25,473 nucleotides of DNA from a virus, in IMG/VR virus record IMGVR_UViG_3300021960_000464, positions 1 through 25,473 of that record; one strand, 5' to 3'. Below, one piece after another: positions 166 through 14,719 of this stretch. The notes beneath the pieces are model-generated. The model searched no databases, had not been told where the DNA came from, and saw only the letters and a program-made list of their open reading frames with translations. The position numbers were made by a program, and so were the translations under genes. The number at the start of each line of letters is the position of its first letter. Positions within the stretch are counted from its first letter, which is position 1.

Positions 166-834
166 ATGTTTACTCATAAAAATTTTAGTCTAGAAGAACT
201 AAATACAGAGACTATCGATGGGAAGCGATTTTATGTCACACCTCAAGGTAAGTTGCCCTCTATTACAACGGTCTTGTCAATTCTGTCACGAGATGCTATT
301 AAGAAGTGGAGACAAAGAGTTGGAGAAGCAGAAGCAAACAAAATTTCAACCAAAGCATCAAGGCGAGGAACAAACGTCCACGCAATGTGCGAGCACTATA
401 TCAACAATGATCTCGATGCAAAGAAGTATCTTCCAAACGACAGAGAAACCTTCAACTCTCTCAAACCTGTTCTCGACGAACACCTCGATAACATCTACGC
501 ACAAGAAGTACCTTTGTGGAGTTCTTATCTGGGTGTCGCTGGTCGTGTGGACTGCATTGCTGAGTGGGATGGTAAACTCTCTGTTATAGACTTTAAGACA
601 AGTCGTAAACTCAAAAAGAAAGAATATATCTCCAATTACTTCCAACAGTGTGCCGCGTATGCGGTTATGTGGGAGGAGAGAACTGGTATTCCCATAAATA
701 AAATTGTAGTGGTAATCGCAGTTGATGGTGAGGAACCTCAAGTGTTTGAGGAAAAACGCGACAATTACATTTATGAATGCGTAGAGACCATTGCTCGATA
801 TAGGAAAGAACAGAGTGGCAACTATACCTCGTAA
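166..834 (+). CDS. PD-(D/E)XK exonuclease, MGME1/Cas4-like
   Basis: This 222-residue protein looks like a single-strand DNA exonuclease of the PD-(D/E)XK superfamily, of the MGME1/RecB-C/Cas4 type found in marine T4-like phages. Motifs appear in the family order: PSITTVLS near residue 31, a GxxxH helix (G68, H72), an acidic residue at E114, D129 in AGRVDC, the catalytic D-x-K in IDFKTS (D142, K144), and the QxxxY motif (Q161, Y165). Length and motif spacing suit a stand-alone nuclease domain. A role in degrading host DNA or trimming recombination intermediates is inferred from the family. The start follows the upstream stop by three bases, and a small gene overlaps its 3' end. The fold is well supported; the exact substrate cannot be read from the sequence. 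Confidence 0.82.
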   Translation: MFTHKNFSLEELNTETIDGKRFYVTPQGKLPSITTVLSILSRDAIKKWRQRVGEAEANKISTKASRRGTNVHAMCEHYINNDLDAKKYLPNDRETFNSLKPVLDEHLDNIYAQEVPLWSSYLGVAGRVDCIAEWDGKLSVIDFKTSRKLKKKEYISNYFQQCAAYAVMWEERTGIPINKIVVVIAVDGEEPQVFEEKRDNYIYECVETIARYRKEQSGNYTS

Positions 835-1022: not shown

Positions 1023-1030
1023 TATAAATA
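1023..1030 (+). promoter_or_regulatory. T4-type late promoter for the tmRNA
   Basis: An exact TATAAATA octamer, the T4 late-promoter consensus, lies in the gap between a gene and the tmRNA. By T4 spacing (octamer at about -13 to -6) transcription would start near 1036, just before the first stem of the tmRNA acceptor piece. The genome is AT-rich, so one octamer alone is weak evidence; its position immediately 5' of an RNA gene is what supports it. Confidence 0.7.
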
Positions 1031-1035
1031 TAAAG

Positions 1036-1262
1036 TAACTTGTTGACGCTGACAAGAAGGTGTTTGGACGAGGGTTCGACTCCCTCCATCTCCACCAAAT
1101 ATCATTCTATGAGTGGTATTCGGGGGGATGCTCTGGGTTCGACAGGCAGATGGACGGTTAGACGAGAGTTACAAAAAGACAAACGCAAACGATGAAACGT
1201 TCGCACTTGCAGCCTGATTAAGACTGCGGAGTTTCGGGGACACTTGGCAACAGAAGTCCCCA
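1036..1262 (+). ncRNA. ssrA: Circularly permuted two-piece tmRNA
   Basis: The halves of a tmRNA occur in reversed order. The acceptor piece comes first: T-arm stem GAGGG/CCCTC (1070-1074 with 1082-1086) around loop TTCGACT, acceptor strand CATCTCC (1087-1093), discriminator A and encoded CCA (1095-1097). The coding piece starts at 1124 with GGGGATG, which pairs with the acceptor strand over seven base pairs; the third pair is G1126-U1091, the G3-U70 identity signal for alanyl-tRNA synthetase. GGGTTCGACAGG of the tmRNA D-region follows. The resume codon is GCA at 1185 and the tag ORF (1185-1217) encodes ANDETFALAA, then TGA. A hairpin GGGGAC/GTCCCC (1236-1241 with 1256-1261) closes the piece. 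CAGGCA (1143-1148) can pair with TGTTTG (1061-1066) as helix P2. Exact mature ends are inferred. The role is release of stalled ribosomes and tagging of the peptide for proteolysis. Confidence 0.93.
1098..1120 (+). other. Intervening hairpin of the tmRNA precursor
   Basis: Between the encoded CCA and the mature 5' end of the coding piece, AATATCATTC (1098-1107) pairs with GAGTGGTATT (1111-1120) over ten base pairs, two of them G-U, with a three-base loop TAT. This would continue the acceptor helix in the unprocessed permuted precursor and be removed by RNase P and 3' processing, as in known two-piece tmRNAs. Confidence 0.75.
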
Positions 1263-1841: not shown

Positions 1842-2106
1842 CTTTCTCCAATTTCTTTATACGGTCTTCTAGTTCGTCTATTTTTTTGGTAACAAATGGA
1901 TACTTTTTACGCCATGCGTCTGTTGGTTGCTCTAACCATGTCCACCCATAACGTGCAACCAAAAAGTCAAGAGTCTGATCTACCTTTCCATAAAACCAGA
2001 TCCCTGCTCTTGTGTCTTTGAGATACGCTAATGCAATTGCACCAATGATTGAACCACCTATTGCAGTCCAGATCCATAATGTATCAGCAAACATTCTCTC
2101 AAGCAT
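1831..2106 (-). CDS. Small membrane protein with C-terminal coiled coil
   Basis: The 91-residue product has one hydrophobic segment (about residues 9-29, WIWTAIGGSIIGAIALAYL) near the N-terminus, a Trp/Tyr-rich middle, and a charged heptad-like tail (KKIDELEDRIKKLEK). The start has an AGGAAAG site and overlaps the lipase stop by eight bases, so translation is probably coupled. Its position next to a lipase and other small membrane proteins would suit a holin- or spanin-like lysis role, but no diagnostic motif shows this. Confidence 0.65.
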   Translation of the reverse strand: MLERMFADTLWIWTAIGGSIIGAIALAYLKDTRAGIWFYGKVDQTLDFLVARYGWTWLEQPTDAWRKKYPFVTKKIDELEDRIKKLEKGGD

Positions 2107-2818
2107 TTTCTTTCCTTCCTGTAAACTCTACGTAGTTGTCCATTCCGTGATCCATAGCACCATCTAAGATACCAGATCTGTACCCTCTGAACTTATCTTT
2201 GATCTTCTGCCAGAAAGTCAACTTACGAACAAACCCATAGAAGTTGATATATCGAAGAGTGCCGTGATGACGATAGAACATTAAAGCAGGAGGTACAGAT
2301 GTGACAATATCATTATTATTTACATGTCTGTAATGAGGACATTTGATTGTCTTAGTAAACCCTTTAGTACCTACCCTAGGCGAACCATAAGTATACAAAC
2401 AATCAACTGAGTCTTGAAATCTGGAAGCAGCGATAGTTGACATTGCTCCACCTAGTGAATGACCTGTGATGAAAAATTCCTTTTTGTTTCCATTATCAAC
2501 AAAATGTTTAAAGAGTTTAGGCCACACCTTTTCTACTTCATTTTGGAATCCATTGTGAACGTATCCACCCATGATGCCTTTATCAGGAAACGCATTAAGA
2601 TCTGCTAATATATCAGACAGTTCATCAGGTTCTGTTCCTCGGAAACAAAGAACATATCGTCGATCATTCCATACAGCATGGCACTGAGCACCATCTTCAT
2701 CAAAAAACTTGTGCTTGGTATACCCTAATTTCTTATACTCTTTGGATGCTTCTTTTCCGTCCAGATAAGCAATACCAGCCATCTTAGCCATTTCATGACA
2801 GTTTTCTATATGCTTCAT
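2099..2818 (-). CDS. Class 3 lipase (alpha/beta hydrolase)
   Basis: This 239-residue protein matches the Lipase_3 family. It carries the nucleophile elbow GHSLGG (residues 119-124, Ser121), the FRGTEPD oxyanion segment (59-65), YGSPRVG (144-150) after the elbow, catalytic Asp170 in NNNDIVTSVPP, and a C-terminal DHGMDNY that supplies His224. All three triad residues are present, so it is likely active on lipid esters. No signal peptide is visible, so it would act in the cytoplasm or on the inner membrane face unless membrane damage lets it out. The start overlaps the thermonuclease stop (ATGA at 2815-2818). A role in membrane breakdown at lysis, or in reusing host lipids, is inference. Confidence 0.88.
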   Translation of the reverse strand: MKHIENCHEMAKMAGIAYLDGKEASKEYKKLGYTKHKFFDEDGAQCHAVWNDRRYVLCFRGTEPDELSDILADLNAFPDKGIMGGYVHNGFQNEVEKVWPKLFKHFVDNGNKKEFFITGHSLGGAMSTIAASRFQDSVDCLYTYGSPRVGTKGFTKTIKCPHYRHVNNNDIVTSVPPALMFYRHHGTLRYINFYGFVRKLTFWQKIKDKFRGYRSGILDGAMDHGMDNYVEFTGRKENA

Positions 2819-3246
2819 ATCTCAACCTTTCCCTCTCCGATTAGACGTTGCCTGTTTACCATATGTGCATCCTGTACATCATCTTTAGATTGTCCGTGAT
2901 ATGCTACCGCATGACCTTCCTCAATCAATATTTCAGTTACTGTCCGTCCACCACATCTAAAATCACCAAGTACTCTTCCGAATTTACCCTTCATATCTTC
3001 ACCTTTCTTATCATCGTATGTGATAAGAATTGCTTCTTCATCAAGTAGTTCTTTTAACCTTGCTTTCGATGCAAGACCAAATATTTTTTCGACTTTATCT
3101 GATGTCCGTGACTCAGGAGTATCAATTCCCATAATACGAACGCGTTCATCTTTCAACCAAATACCAAATCCAAGATCAATGTTCACATCAACAGTATCAC
3201 CGTCAACCACTTTGATCACCTCTACGTCATACTCATTTACTTTCAT
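2815..3246 (-). CDS. Thermonuclease (staphylococcal nuclease family)
   Basis: The product is a 143-residue SNase/TNase-family nuclease. Counted from the ATG at 3246, VVDGDTVDV holds the calcium-binding Asp17, ERVRIMGIDTPES holds Arg37, Asp42 and Glu45, and KFGRVLGD holds Arg91; these match the catalytic Arg-Glu-Arg set and metal ligands of staphylococcal nuclease. I prefer ATG 3246 over the upstream ATG 3258 because GGAG lies six bases before it and it forms an ATGA overlap with the 44-codon gene upstream. No signal peptide is seen, so it likely cuts nucleic acid inside the cell, possibly host DNA or RNA late in infection. Confidence 0.87.
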   Translation of the reverse strand: MKVNEYDVEVIKVVDGDTVDVNIDLGFGIWLKDERVRIMGIDTPESRTSDKVEKIFGLASKARLKELLDEEAILITYDDKKGEDMKGKFGRVLGDFRCGGRTVTEILIEEGHAVAYHGQSKDDVQDAHMVNRQRLIGEGKVEI

Positions 3247-3377
3247 AGACTTCTCCATTTCTGTTTTATTATTTTTTTCTTTTCTTCAAAGTCATCACGC
3301 ACCTTCTGTATTCTCTCAAATAACAGTTGGTGCCAATAATCGTATTTCGGTTTCGCAATTCTTCTTGGTCTTATCAT
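3243..3377 (-). CDS. Tiny basic protein (44 residues), unrecognised
   Basis: A 44-codon gene fits exactly between its neighbours: its ATG overlaps the upstream stop as ATGA (3374-3377), and its TGA overlaps the thermonuclease ATG in the same way (3243-3246). The product starts MIRPRRIAKPKYDYW and continues as a charged helix rich in Lys, Arg and Glu. There is no Shine-Dalgarno sequence, so translation would depend on coupling. The double stop-start overlap is the main reason to call it real. Confidence 0.6.
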   Translation of the reverse strand: MIRPRRIAKPKYDYWHQLLFERIQKVRDDFEEKKKIIKQKWRSL

Positions 3378-3817
3378 TTAAGTGAGATTAACCATAGCAG
3401 TAACCAAATTGCACCACCGATAACAGCAAGACAAGCAAGTCCCGCACTTCCGTATATTAAAGTATCTTTAATGAGTTTCTTCTTTGCTTTTTCTTTTTCT
3501 TCTTGACGTTTGCGTTCGTTTTCACGCATCATCTTTCTGTTTTCAATGAACTTGCAGTAATCATCCCAAAGTCCAGCTCGTCCATTGTAAATAAACATTT
3601 GCTTGACTTCAGCTTCATGTCTCTTGATGTCTTCTAGTGCCCAAAACGCCTGCATATCACCGGATGCCGCATCTTTCTCAAGTTCATCTTTTGCGTCTGC
3701 TAGTTTAGTGAGATCTTTGCCCATCTGACCGACGGACTCGACATGACCCGCAAACTCTTTAATGGCACCGATTGCCTCGTTTGCGATCTGAATTGCCGCG
3801 ATAGCTTCGAAAATCAT
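3374..3817 (-). CDS. Membrane-anchored coiled-coil protein, first gene of the minus-strand cassette
   Basis: This 147-residue product has a long helical, charged body, with heptad-like stretches around residues 25-60 and a Lys/Glu-rich section (ENERKRQEEKEKAKKK). A C-terminal hydrophobic segment (about LIYGSAGLACLAVIGGAIWLLLWLI) would anchor it in the membrane with the body on the cytoplasmic side. I use the ATG at 3817 because GGAAG lies eight bases upstream; an in-frame ATG at 3868 has none. It is the first gene after the minus-strand late promoter at 3887-3894. The family is unknown to me; a tail-anchored virion or lysis protein is possible. Confidence 0.68.
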   Translation of the reverse strand: MIFEAIAAIQIANEAIGAIKEFAGHVESVGQMGKDLTKLADAKDELEKDAASGDMQAFWALEDIKRHEAEVKQMFIYNGRAGLWDDYCKFIENRKMMRENERKRQEEKEKAKKKLIKDTLIYGSAGLACLAVIGGAIWLLLWLISLK

Positions 3818-3886
3818 GAGTTCTTCCTTTTGTGACTCATGATATAAAAATAGTGAAGGGAATTTCAATCAAATGATTAGAGATAC

Positions 3887-3898
3887 TATTTATAAATA
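3887..3898. promoter_or_regulatory. Palindromic, two-way T4-type late promoter
   Basis: TATTTATAAATA is a perfect 12-base palindrome, so each strand reads TATAAATA (3891-3898 on +, 3894-3887 on -). It lies in the only gap between the minus-strand cassette (start 3817) and the plus-strand gp33 gene (start 3966). By T4 spacing the starts would be near 3904 (+) and 3881 (-). The T4 late promoter is the family; two-way use is inference from the symmetry and the divergent genes. Confidence 0.72.
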
Positions 3899-3965: not shown

Positions 3966-4187
3966 ATGCTAGACTTAATGTCTTCTCAAAAATTTTCTAT
4001 AATTATAGAAGAAACAGTGAAAGATAAAAGATTAAGTTACATGGATGCTATCGTTTGGTGGTGCGAAAAGCACGAAATGGAAATTGAAGTTGCCGCGAAA
4101 CTGTGTAATGGAGTCATTAAAGAAAAACTAAGATATGAAGCACAGGAACTTAACTTTCTGGAGAAACCTAATCGCCTACCTATATGA
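3966..4187 (+). CDS. 33: gp33-like late-transcription accessory protein
   Basis: This 73-residue protein resembles the conserved part of T4 gp33, which bridges the beta-flap of host RNA polymerase and the sliding clamp gp45 so that late promoters are activated. Visible support includes IIEETVKDKRLSYMDAIVWWCEKHEMEIEVAAKLCNG, matching the T4 pattern of a Glu-rich helix, SY-(M/L)-(D/E)-A and a second helix, though only part of it is quoted by position here (residues 12-48). It is shorter than T4 gp33 (112). The order 33-59-32 is that of T4, and TATAAATA promoters occur in this window. An AGGAG site lies six bases before the ATG. Its stop overlaps the ATG of gp59. Confidence 0.8.
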   Translation: MLDLMSSQKFSIIIEETVKDKRLSYMDAIVWWCEKHEMEIEVAAKLCNGVIKEKLRYEAQELNFLEKPNRLPI

Positions 4188-4789
4188 GTGAAACAATGAG
4201 TGGATTTGATTGTTATCAAACATACCTTGCAGTGAATAATCACTTCAAGCAAAAGTCATACGACTTTTTTAAATATCATGGAAAAATATCTGCAAAAACC
4301 ACCTCTTACGAAATAAGGAAAGATAAATATTTTTTTGAGAAGGCATCTCGTAAGTTCAATCGGGACGACTTTATCAAATACCTCGTTGCCAATTTCATCA
4401 GAGGCAACACTTGGATAGGAGAACTACTCACACCTAAGACTGAAATTGATTTTAAAAAATGGCGTAAACGAATCGAATCTCTGACATATAATTTCAGGCA
4501 AGAATTATCACAGATACACGATAAAGAGGAGAACTTTAATAACCTTTTTGTGATAGAAAAAGGAAAGCACCCATACGCATTCCGACTCTATCAAAGGGGT
4601 ACAGTGTCACTAGAGACACTCGTCTTACTCGATGATCTGGTACACTTTACCAAACATTGGTCTAAGCACGATGATATTATACTGAATGAAGTCGTTGAAC
4701 TCATACATAAGTATCGTCCGTTCTTATACCACTTTACTAATGCTGATAATAACAAACTAAAGCATATTGTATTGGAGACATACTCATGA
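4184..4789 (+). CDS. 59: gp59-like loader of the replicative helicase
   Basis: This 201-residue protein matches T4 gp59 (217), which binds fork DNA and gp32 and loads the gp41 helicase during recombination-dependent replication. The strongest match is RKDKYFFEKASRKF (residues 45-58), corresponding to RRDKYFFQKLSEKY in T4, followed by a helical region with LVANFI and WIGELL. It starts with ATG overlapping the gp33 stop (ATGA at 4184-4187) and ends overlapping the next ATG, in the T4 order 33-59-32. The protein is basic and cytoplasmic. An in-frame ATG six codons on could also serve. Confidence 0.83.
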   Translation: MSETMSGFDCYQTYLAVNNHFKQKSYDFFKYHGKISAKTTSYEIRKDKYFFEKASRKFNRDDFIKYLVANFIRGNTWIGELLTPKTEIDFKKWRKRIESLTYNFRQELSQIHDKEENFNNLFVIEKGKHPYAFRLYQRGTVSLETLVLLDDLVHFTKHWSKHDDIILNEVVELIHKYRPFLYHFTNADNNKLKHIVLETYS

Positions 4790-5016: not shown

Positions 5017-5056
5017 AAGGTAATACATTATGAATACGTGGACAAGTTACATACAA

Positions 5057-5088
5057 AATATACAATTATACGAGGAATATACAATTAT
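5057..5088 (+). repeat. 13-base direct repeat in the gp32 leader
   Basis: AATATACAATTAT occurs at 5057-5069 and again at 5076-5088, where the second copy runs into the gp32 ATG (5087). The ribosome-binding site GAGG (5072-5075) lies between the copies. The leader is A/U-rich and has little stable pairing. In T4, gp32 represses its own translation by binding such an unstructured leader; a similar role here is inference. Confidence 0.7.
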
Positions 5089-5980
5089 GGCAAATTCATT
5101 TGCATCTCTCAAAAAGTCACGCAACTCATCACTCGACAAGTTGCTTCAAGAAACTCAGAAACTTTCTGACAACACTAGTGGTGTCTCACAAGGTCCGGAT
5201 GAACGCATCTGGAAACCAACTGTCGACAAAGCAGGTAATGGTTACGCAGTGATTCGTTTTCTACCAGAACCAAAGGGTGAAGATCTACCTTGGGTTCGTC
5301 TATTCGATCATGGGTTCCAAGGAACTGGTGGTTGGTACATCGAGAACTCTCTGACTACACTGAATCAGAAAGATCCAGTATCTGAGTATAATTCTGAACT
5401 GTGGAACAACGGTACCGATGCAGGTAAAGAGCAAGCACGAAAGCAGAAGCGTCGTCTAAAGTACTTCTCTAACATTCTGGTCGTCAAAGACCCATCAAAT
5501 CCTCAGAACGAGGGCAAGGTGTTTCTGTACCAGTATGGTAAGAAGATTTGGGATAAGATCAATGATCTCATGCAACCAGAGTTTGAAGATGAGTCACCAG
5601 TTAACCCATTCGACTTTTGGGAAGGTGCCGACTTCAAACTGAAGATTCGTCAAGTTGAGGGTTATCGCAACTACGATAAGTCTGAGTTTGACGCACCGTC
5701 TCAGTTGTTTGATGGTGATGACGATTCACTTGAAAAGGTGTACGAAGGACTGTACTCTCTCCAAGAGTTAGTGTCACCAGACAAGTTCAAGTCTTACGAC
5801 GAACTCAAGCAAAAACTTAACAAGGTTTTGGGGTTAGGTTCTACTACACCTAGTCCTGCGTATGAGGTAGAAGATTTTACTCCTGCCCCTGCTCCGAAGG
5901 AGGCATCCGCACCAAAAATTGCAACAACCGCAGATGATGATGACGATCTGTCATTTTTTGAGCAATTAGCAAACGACTAG
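5087..5980 (+). CDS. 32: gp32 single-stranded DNA-binding protein
   Basis: The 297-residue product matches T4 gp32 (301). It begins MANSFASLKKSRNSSL, which contains the Lys/Arg-Ser/Thr LAST motif for cooperative binding, followed by the OB-fold core with VIRFLP and FDHGFQGTGGWYIEN, and ends in an acidic tail (ADDDDDLSFFEQLAND) of the kind that recruits replication partners. In T4 the segment after WYIEN holds three cysteines that, with a histidine, bind zinc; here it reads IENSLTTLNQKDPVSEY with none, so zinc is probably absent. I set the start at ATG 5087, after GAGG, because the upstream ATG at 5030 would add an unrelated AU-coded leader only seven bases from the predicted transcript start. 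It binds single-stranded DNA in replication, repair and recombination. Confidence 0.95.
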   Translation: MANSFASLKKSRNSSLDKLLQETQKLSDNTSGVSQGPDERIWKPTVDKAGNGYAVIRFLPEPKGEDLPWVRLFDHGFQGTGGWYIENSLTTLNQKDPVSEYNSELWNNGTDAGKEQARKQKRRLKYFSNILVVKDPSNPQNEGKVFLYQYGKKIWDKINDLMQPEFEDESPVNPFDFWEGADFKLKIRQVEGYRNYDKSEFDAPSQLFDGDDDSLEKVYEGLYSLQELVSPDKFKSYDELKQKLNKVLGLGSTTPSPAYEVEDFTPAPAPKEASAPKIATTADDDDDLSFFEQLAND

Positions 5981-12531: not shown

Positions 12532-13874
12532 TGGCAAAAGAGTCCAAAACAGGATATCGTTTTGCAGGTGATATCGATATCAAGCAATCTCTTTTGATCT
12601 CAGTTACAGGTCAGATCATTGATATTGAAAAATTAATTGTAGAGTATAATTTTTATCAAAGTCTCCATGAGCATTATATGCAGTGCGACTTGGTTATTCA
12701 AGACGCAGTTGGACTCATTGATAGTTTAAAAGGTGATTCCAAAAATAAACTGATTGGAGGATTTACCGGAGGTGAAATGTTTATTATCAAATTTGCAGTT
12801 CCCGGCGGTAAAGATATTATTTTGTCTTTTGCATTATATGAGTTAACAGATCGATCTCGTGTAGACGAAAAAATCGAAAGTTATATGCTATCGGGTATTA
12901 GTGTCGAATCTTATTTTTCCTCGGTAAAGAAAATCAGTCGTTCATACGGTCCTAATAAAATTTCTGCAATGGTAAAATCTATTGTTGACGAATTTGTATT
13001 TTCAAAAGAAGTAAAGGGATTGTACAACAGTTATAAAGGTGTTACAAATTCCCGATTAAATAAAGAAGTATTTGTTCGTGACACTTCTGGTTTGCAAAAA
13101 TATATTATTCCAAATATGACAGTTGGAGAAACAATTGAGTTGCTATCCAAGGAAGCAAACAATACAAAAAATATTCCTTTCTATAGATTTTATGAGGACA
13201 CAGTAGGATTTAAATTTGAAGATGTGAATGAACTTATCAAGCAAGATTTCGTAAAACGATTTACTTACATTCCTACAATAGGAAACGAAGTTGATAATGA
13301 TCAAGAAGATCAATATAAAGATGCATCAAAAATTATTGAGTACACTGTACAAAAACAATCCAATATTTTAAACAACAGTCAAAAGGGTTTATTTAGGTCT
13401 AAAACAATAAACTTAGATATTTTAAGAAAAACAAAAACTGAAACAACTTTTGATTATGAAAAAAGACATTCGGACTTTAACACTCTTCAAAAATTTAAAA
13501 TACCGGGATCAATTGATGGTGATCCTGTGCTATACATGATGCAATCAAGAACAAATCACGATCAGGATTCTTTATTTACCACAGAAAGACCTTACCCTAA
13601 AAAAATAAATCAAAGTGTCGGGTTAACACAATCTTACAAATCACACATTTTTAATAATGTAGTGGATGTAGTAATACCCGGAGACGAAAATTTGATTGTA
13701 GGGAATACGATCTATTTAGAAATACCAGTTGCAACAACTCTAAATAAGAAAGATGGACAGCAAGATAAATATCTAAGTGGAAAATATCTTATTACCAAAA
13801 TTCGTCATCAGATGAAAGAAGAACAATTTTTTAGTTACTTGGAATGTGTTAAGGACACAGGGATAGAAATCTAA
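12531..13874 (+). CDS. 27: gp27-like baseplate hub protein
   Basis: The 447-residue product starts with GTG (TAGTG overlap with gp53, AAGGA upstream). It resembles the hub ring protein gp27 (391 in T4), on which the gp5 spike sits: an N-terminal strand region with YNFYQSLHEHYMQCDLVIQD and MFIIKFAVPGGKDIILSFAL, a helical middle (KISAMVKSIVDEF, GETIELLSKEAN), and a C-terminal beta part ending LSGKYLITKIRHQ with a conserved strand. Such tube-like double domains are the hallmark of hub proteins. Location before the spike gene and after gp53 supports the call. Similarity to T4 is low, so the name rests on pattern plus context. Confidence 0.76.
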   Translation: MAKESKTGYRFAGDIDIKQSLLISVTGQIIDIEKLIVEYNFYQSLHEHYMQCDLVIQDAVGLIDSLKGDSKNKLIGGFTGGEMFIIKFAVPGGKDIILSFALYELTDRSRVDEKIESYMLSGISVESYFSSVKKISRSYGPNKISAMVKSIVDEFVFSKEVKGLYNSYKGVTNSRLNKEVFVRDTSGLQKYIIPNMTVGETIELLSKEANNTKNIPFYRFYEDTVGFKFEDVNELIKQDFVKRFTYIPTIGNEVDNDQEDQYKDASKIIEYTVQKQSNILNNSQKGLFRSKTINLDILRKTKTETTFDYEKRHSDFNTLQKFKIPGSIDGDPVLYMMQSRTNHDQDSLFTTERPYPKKINQSVGLTQSYKSHIFNNVVDVVIPGDENLIVGNTIYLEIPVATTLNKKDGQQDKYLSGKYLITKIRHQMKEEQFFSYLECVKDTGIEI

Positions 13875-14719
13875 TGCTACACTTTAAAGAACATGTAGAG
13901 ATGCGTGACTATCAGCAGCTCGAAGAAAAACTGATTATGTACAACCAAGGCAAACGCTACGGTCAAGTAGTGTTCTTAGCAGGTGGTGCAGGTTCTGGTA
14001 AAGGGTTCGCACAATCGAACTTCATGGAAGCAGACAAGTTCAAGGTGTTCGATGTAGACGAACTCAAGAAGTTATTCATCAAAGTCCGTGACCTTAAAAT
14101 GGATTTGCGTAATCCAGATGATGTCGCTGCGTTACATCAAATGGTTAAAGACTCTGGTGTAAGAGACTCAGCATTGCTTTCTCTTGCGAGGTCAGTATCC
14201 CAATCCAAGACGACAGATACCTTGCCAAACCTGATGTTTGATGTTACACTGAAAGAGATCGAAGATATCAAAGAAATGATGCCGATGCTGAATGCATTGG
14301 GATACGATGCAAAAAATATTCACGTGACTTGGGTATTAGCAGACTACTATGTGGCAGTTAAGGCAAACCAAGAACGTGACCGTGTTGTACCAGACGACAT
14401 TATGCTAAAAACACACATTGGAGCATCAAAGACAATGACTGAGATTATCAAAGGCAAACTGCCTCGTGGTGTCAATGGTGAGGTGCGAGTCATTCTCAAC
14501 AATCGCGAAAACACGATTCCATACACTGATGCCGACGGGAATGTGATTAAGGGCAGTGGTTCAAAGAAAATGATTGTCAAGGACTTCACCTATGTCACTC
14601 TGAAAAAGTCTGGTAAATCATTCATGAAGGACGCGGCAGTTCAGAAGCAAGTATTCAGTTGGATTAAAAATAATGTACCAAAAGACGCATTGCGTCAGAT
14701 TAAAATACCCAAGCAGTAA
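13874..14719 (+). CDS. P-loop kinase, zeta-toxin-like, inside the hub operon
   Basis: This 281-residue protein has a Walker A motif GGAGSGKG (residues 37-44, Lys43), a following DVDELKK (about 60-66) that resembles the acidic substrate-site motif of zeta-type kinases, and an Arg-rich lid-like segment (NQERDRVVPDD). The fold is probably that of a small-molecule or polypeptide kinase. Its ATG overlaps the stop of the hub gene (TAATG), so it is translated together with a structural protein. Codon choice looks less A/T-biased at third positions than in its neighbours, hinting at separate origin. The substrate is unknown. A structural role or a host-directed kinase are both possible. Confidence 0.68.
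   Translation: MLHFKEHVEMRDYQQLEEKLIMYNQGKRYGQVVFLAGGAGSGKGFAQSNFMEADKFKVFDVDELKKLFIKVRDLKMDLRNPDDVAALHQMVKDSGVRDSALLSLARSVSQSKTTDTLPNLMFDVTLKEIEDIKEMMPMLNALGYDAKNIHVTWVLADYYVAVKANQERDRVVPDDIMLKTHIGASKTMTEIIKGKLPRGVNGEVRVILNNRENTIPYTDADGNVIKGSGSKKMIVKDFTYVTLKKSGKSFMKDAAVQKQVFSWIKNNVPKDALRQIKIPKQ

Follow-up and report, generated by a model that had tools for sequence, protein, structure and literature searches.

The window, that is, the whole stretch of 25,473 bases that was analysed, is a virus record and represents a fragment of a phage genome. Its genes are T4-like (exonuclease PHROG 298, gp33, gp59, gp32, gp2, gp4, gp53 and others), and the phage carrying it is a T4-like, aquatic one. Positions 1035-1262 hold a complete circularly permuted tmRNA gene, which lies between an exonuclease and a group of T4-type replication and late-transcription genes, as follows.

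166-834, plus strand: PD-(D/E)XK exonuclease (PHROG 298), upstream flank
1023-1030, plus strand: TATAAATA, T4-type late-promoter element, predicted start at about 1036
1035-1097, plus strand: acceptor piece, with a helix 2 strand, the T-arm, the 3' acceptor strand, A1094 and CCA (sequence reading, Rfam, ARAGORN)
1035-1041, plus strand: 5' strand of distal helix 2, GUAACUU, pairing with 1166-1172
1049-1053/1157-1161: part of helix 2, joining both pieces
1061-1066/1143-1148: part of helix 2, joining both pieces
1070-1086, plus strand: T-arm, GAGGG UUCGACU CCCUC, with the T-stem at 1070-1074/1082-1086
1087-1093, plus strand: acceptor 3' strand, CAUCUCC (sequence reading)
1094 and 1095-1097, plus strand: discriminator A and encoded CCA (sequence reading)
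1098-1123, plus strand: intervening segment of 26 nt, a hairpin fold extending the acceptor stem
1124-1262, plus strand: coding (mRNA-like) piece of about 139 nt (sequence reading, Rfam, ARAGORN)
1124-1130, plus strand: acceptor 5' strand, GGGGAUG, 7/7 pairs with 1087-1093
1135-1143, plus strand: tmRNA motif GGGUUCGAC, within the coding piece
1166-1172, plus strand: 3' strand of distal helix 2, GAGUUAC, pairing with 1035-1041
1173-1184, plus strand: 12-nt linker AAAAAGACAAAC at the place of pseudoknot 1 (PK1), placed by leader length and the end of helix 2
1185-1217, plus strand: tag reading frame ANDETFALAA with UGA stop (sequence reading, ARAGORN)
1229-1232/1242-1245, plus strand: possible 4-bp pseudoknot, seen by eye in the window and its relatives
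1236-1241/1256-1261, within 1229-1261, plus strand: 3' hairpin (predicted fold)
3966-4187, plus strand: gp33-like late-transcription coactivator (Pfam Trans_coact, E 3.4e-22), downstream flank
4184-4789, plus strand: gp59 helicase loader, downstream flank
5030-5980, plus strand: gp32 single-strand-binding protein, downstream flank

Architecture of the two-piece tmRNA

A preliminary description of this DNA had recognised a circularly permuted, two-piece tmRNA whose tag ends in ALAA, and ARAGORN, Rfam and a reading of the sequence all uphold this identification. ARAGORN calls a single permuted tmRNA ('tmRNA*') with the tag ANDETFALAA, and no tRNA gene in the window. Two Rfam models are matched over their full length and above their gathering scores: RF01850 beta_tmRNA with 100.7 bits (cut-off 84, E 7.5e-30) at 998-1270, and RF04321 tmRNA_permuted with 93.4 bits (cut-off 47, E 3.6e-17) at 1038-1217. 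The preliminary description had named a covariance search with the permuted models as a check, and a score below threshold as grounds for refutation; with both scores above their cut-offs, this outcome is avoided. Its coordinates for the T-arm and CCA (1070-1097), the 5' end (1124) and the GCA codon (1185) are all correct, and so are the seven acceptor pairs including G3-U70, the ten-codon tag and the UGA stop.

The order of acceptor piece, spacer and coding piece is that of a permuted tmRNA as modelled in RF04321. The alanine-type tRNA-like domain is complete, having a 7-bp acceptor stem, G3-U70 (G1126-U1091), a T-arm, a GGNUUCGAC-like motif and the CCA end. Helix 2 provides a second pairing between the pieces, which puts the start of the acceptor piece at about 1035-1036. 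This link between the pieces, again as in RF04321, has undergone compensatory change within a clade of phages: in nine related phage sequences the pairs of helix 2 are kept with both-sided changes and a few mispaired cells at the helix edges, and distal helix 2 alternates between U-A, C-G and G-C at one pair and between C-G and U-A at another. Both-sided changes also occur in relatives at the first two T-stem pairs, and acceptor pairs 4, 5 and 6 covary across viral loci for which the ANDETFALAA tag pattern was the sole criterion of choice, the acceptor stem being left free. The tag frame runs from the resume codon GCA (1185-1187) through GCA AAC GAU GAA ACG UUC GCA CUU GCA GCC to the stop UGA (1215-1217), and its hydrophobic -ALAA end is likewise that of a permuted tmRNA.

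The spacer at 1098-1123 folds into a hairpin stacked on the acceptor stem (MFE -21.4 kcal/mol, z -5.6), and the longer spacers of relatives likewise close with a stem (z -3.8 to -4.6). In their mature parts, the window tmRNA and that of the related viral locus L119 are about 97% identical, and their spacers measure 26 and 110 nt; conserved mature parts combined with a freely varying excised part should be what a processed RNA would display. The spacers of the near relatives L119, L101, L102 and L302 measure 96-110 nt, the extra length being structured sequence inside the hairpin. In L103 and L124, unlike in the window, CCA is incompletely encoded (the RNA ends CTCCACCT), so a CCA-adding enzyme would be needed there.

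Loss of pseudoknot 1 and the origin of the RNA

PK1 is usual for tmRNA in general, yet it lies outside the base pairs of RF04321. In the window it is absent: helix 2 is followed by 12 unpaired bases (1173-1184) and then by the resume codon. The leader between the 5' end and the resume codon measures 61 nt; it measures 83-85 nt in 15 permuted tmRNAs from cellular Burkholderiales genomes and 82 nt in the phage Melnitz. The window tmRNA groups with those of L101, L102, L103, L112, L119, L124, L140 and L243 (SH-aLRT 98), and the tag frames are intact in all nine members. This PK1-less clade of the window and eight relatives, with its compensatory helix 2, is new here. Four other phage tmRNAs with short leaders (62-72 nt), those of L174, L175, L230 and L154, fall outside the clade and are possibly separate reductions of PK1.

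PK1 has been reported for nearly all tmRNAs, two earlier exceptions, Oenococcus oeni and the Pavlova chloroplast, being without its helix 4 (PMC1168896). An engineered Escherichia coli tmRNA without PK1 still tags, according to the title of the report (Wower, Zwieb, Wower 2009, cited in PMC4236655); this RNA shares the absence of PK1 with the window but is one-piece, whereas the loss in the window is natural and affects a two-piece RNA. Given the engineered RNA and the known exceptions, natural loss of PK1 is unusual yet compatible with function. It could nevertheless weaken activity.

Phage-borne two-piece tmRNAs are already known, and the window tmRNA is a structural variant of them by loss of PK1. 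A count of 18,146 phage genomes in 2021 found 53 two-piece tmRNAs, 50 of them marine or aquatic (PMC9004378), and a tmRNA database holds 79 phage sequences of all forms (PMC11915505). The earlier statement that phage-borne copies are uncommon therefore does not stand, considering that Melnitz and these 53 had been reported by 2022 (PMC9004378) and that about half of the T4-like contigs with both flanking genes carry one. Melnitz (a Methylophilales phage, MZ577097; PMC9004378) is the closest parallel in arrangement, being a T4-like aquatic phage with a permuted two-piece tmRNA in a slot ordered like that of the window: PD-(D/E)XK nuclease, small ORFs, tmRNA, gp33, gp59 and gp32. However, its tmRNA matches the alpha_tmRNA model and that of the window beta_tmRNA; its 82-nt leader leaves room for PK1; its tag is ANDNYVPVDYALAA instead of ANDETFALAA; its spacer is 142 nt instead of 26 nt; and it has a glutamine riboswitch on the 3' side, which an Rfam search did not find in the window.

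With the permuted tmRNAs of RF01850 and RF04321, the window tmRNA shares gene order, G3-U70, T-arm and form of tag. It differs from the betaproteobacterial members of RF01850 in having no PK1 and in encoding CCA, whereas many sampled Burkholderiales genes end in ACC followed by C or U. A simple betaproteobacterial type was considered and rejected, as the label is unstable among near-identical relatives: L119 comes out as alpha_tmRNA, and for L101 tmRNA_permuted is the one model matched.

The tag itself is also found in bacteria. A scan of 84,980 genomes, one per species, for DNA encoding ANDETFALAA plus a stop gave 99 genome stretches, mainly from Burkholderiaceae and Colwelliaceae. ARAGORN made 97 one-piece calls in these stretches and no permuted call with this tag; the few permuted calls in cellular stretches have unrelated tags and are spurious. 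Indeed, Paraburkholderia, Caballeronia and Thalassotalea have the identical tag but in a one-piece gene. Viral contigs gave 41 permuted calls in 49 ANDETFALAA stretches, and the combination of this tag with the permuted form is viral only, within the sample searched. Strong permuted matches (E below 1e-24) occur in 16 of 399 Burkholderiales genomes, with different tags. The idea that the gene was recently captured from a host sharing its tag was thus rejected, and the window tmRNA is no recent copy of a sampled host gene, since the cellular bearers of the tag are one-piece and the permuted Burkholderiales genes have other tags. The sampled Burkholderiales permuted tmRNAs also fall outside the phage clade, in a tree built without SAR11 and other alphaproteobacterial sequences.

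A slot in T4-like phages with a late-type promoter

Two sets of loci place the gene. Among 116 loci with a permuted call, chosen by tmRNA motifs, the exonuclease lies upstream on the same strand in 46/46 viral loci where it was found, and the downstream genes, where found, are gp33 (41/42), gp59 (42/42) and gp32 (33/34). An independent set of 160 loci was chosen by the exonuclease or gp32 protein, and 45 of these hold both flanks; a permuted tmRNA occurs in 21 of these 45 T4-like contigs and the one-piece form in none, figures that count contigs and not events, many contigs being near copies. In cyanophage S-SSM7 the exonuclease runs into gp33 with nothing between. Considering this carriage, the empty slot of S-SSM7 and the same order in Melnitz, the tmRNA is an optional resident of a fixed slot.

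The identities of exonuclease and tmRNA correlate across loci (Mantel r 0.47; 0/999 permutations as high), and some loci depart from this. The exonucleases of L302 and L303 are 93% and 88% identical to that of the window, with tmRNAs only 59-61% identical; conversely, L103 has an exonuclease of 53% and a tmRNA of 86% identity. These mismatches show that tmRNA alleles are exchanged between phages, a finding that is new here. PK1-less L102 and long-leader L302 have very similar spacers of 96-97 nt; exchange among different tmRNAs thus seems to extend to the spacers. By exonuclease the closest phage is C48C1, in whose stretch shown no tmRNA is annotated. By DNA no close relative turned up among isolate phages: the one blastn match was a 27% stretch in Acinetobacter phage BUCT628, and with the limit raised to E 1 there were short matches only.

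Several other genes accompany the tmRNA. Directly 3' of it, on the plus strand (1285-1608), lies a 107-aa protein of unknown function, which occupies the same place in much of the clade and in neighbouring loci (L101-L103, L112, L118, L119, L124, L136, L140, L147 and L243) and was not found in a search of isolate phages. Between the tmRNA and gp33, the minus strand carries a cassette made up of a class-3 lipase and an SNase-family nuclease (2099-3258), which in relatives is present, moved or absent. It is accompanied by a 164-aa protein (3374-3868), which follows two divergent copies of TATAAATA (3887-3898). Farther away, at 13874-14719 on the plus strand, a PHROG 5268 protein sits within the baseplate gene cluster; it weakly matches Zeta-toxin, a P-loop kinase (E 1e-6).

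The element TATAAATA lies 5 nt upstream of the point where helix 2 begins, and the usual spacing of T4 late promoters would place the start at about 1036. The window contains 7 copies compared with 1.76 expected (0/100 shuffles had as many), and further copies precede gp48, gp33 and gp2. At this register, 6 of 50 distinct T4-like loci have TATAAATA (0.07 expected), 16 have TAAATA (0.6 expected) and 13 have a sigma-70-like TATAAT (0.7 expected); these expectations were taken from whole loci, whose A+T content is probably lower than that of intergenic DNA, and they may thus exaggerate the excess to some degree. Cyanophages use NATAAATA as their late motif (PMC2984593). Melnitz has TATAAATA at the same register, and its ssrA was placed after an early promoter by its authors (PMC9004378). 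Late expression is the better prediction for the window tmRNA, and some relatives may differ. The occurrence of TATAAATA just upstream of the tmRNA, and its enrichment there in relatives, are new here.

Proposed working and competing explanations

We propose that the window encodes a functional two-piece tmRNA that acts late, together with the SmpB and alanyl-tRNA synthetase of the host, and we consider this very probable. As judged from sequence comparison, the gene is complete, the pairing between its pieces is compensated and its slot is conserved in aquatic T4-like phages; we infer that the RNA is processed and alanylated and that it cooperates with host SmpB in tagging and recycling. Transcription would begin at about 1036, from a late promoter of the gp55/gp33 type. 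The tRNA-processing enzymes of the host would excise the 26-nt hairpin spacer, with RNase P cutting at 1124 and 3' trimming proceeding down to the encoded CCA at 1097, and the processed pieces would be held together by the acceptor stem and helix 2. The host alanyl-tRNA synthetase would then charge the RNA by means of G3-U70, and host SmpB and EF-Tu would deliver it to ribosomes that have stalled in the absence of a stop codon. Translation would restart at GCA 1185, append A-ANDETFALAA and terminate, thus recycling the ribosomes and directing the tagged product to ClpXP-type proteases. The likely benefit is that ribosomes would be kept free late in infection, when the host tmRNA may not be renewable from a degraded chromosome.

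The preliminary description had assumed that the phage supplies its own ribosome rescue. This holds for the RNA, which is phage-encoded; however, an SmpB gene was not found in 32 related phage records (23 + 9, including Melnitz) by a search that recovered the gene in 10/14 control genomes, a result that is new here, and the phage's own rescue would therefore mean its own RNA with host proteins. It had also tentatively linked the recycling to cleaved host messages, on account of two nearby nucleases (the PD-(D/E)XK exonuclease and the SNase-family protein). This idea has no support of its own, and the nucleases were rejected as a sign of such a role; the exonuclease also stands here in cyanophages without a tmRNA, and the promoter evidence favours late expression. 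Two points count against a working tmRNA: about half of the related phages are without one, and a host tmRNA should already be in the cell.

A broader reading, which we offer tentatively and with more doubt than confidence, is that the clade is a phage-specialised tmRNA lineage, defined by loss of PK1, a late promoter, a dedicated locus beside the late-transcription coactivator and swapped alleles, and serving a late takeover of host rescue. Phage tmRNAs have been listed before; the fixed slot, the late-type promoter and the PK1-less form make their purpose testable. The naturally PK1-less two-piece RNA is roughly 200 nt, and the clade offers a natural minimal tmRNA for structural study of the role of PK1. 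The tmRNA is a common, exchangeable part of aquatic T4-like phages and not a chance capture.

Alternatively, the RNA may act mainly against the host, either by competing for SmpB and ribosomes or by early tagging of host proteins to free amino acids, the latter being the suggestion made for Melnitz. There is a precedent in the tagless tmRNA of mycobacteriophage DS6A, which inhibits the endogenous tmRNA in E. coli (PMC11915505), and both the early promoter assigned to the Melnitz gene by its authors (PMC9004378) and the TATAAT found at this place in some relatives (13/50) point the same way. We regard this as unlikely for the window, whose tmRNA retains the whole tag reading frame, including a degron-like end, and whose promoter element is late-type, as is the TATAAATA of Melnitz at the same register; turnover of host proteins early in infection fits late expression poorly.

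It is much less probable still that the gene is a captured host gene carried passively, or a decaying PK1-less copy, in either case without function. PK1 is missing in the clade, and tmRNA genes are common integration sites, and prophages contain fragments of them (PMC9004378). Against decay or passive carriage, the changes in helix 2 and the acceptor stem are compensatory, the tag frames of all nine clade members are intact, the slot is fixed and the sampled Burkholderiales permuted tmRNAs lie outside the phage clade. Finally, misassembly or bacterial contamination as the source of the tmRNA in this virus record is hardly credible, even though the tag is known in cellular Burkholderiaceae and Colwelliaceae. 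The cellular genes with ANDETFALAA are one-piece, and L101 and L119, which are independent contigs and come from other samples, contradict this reading by sharing both the RNA and the phage gene order.
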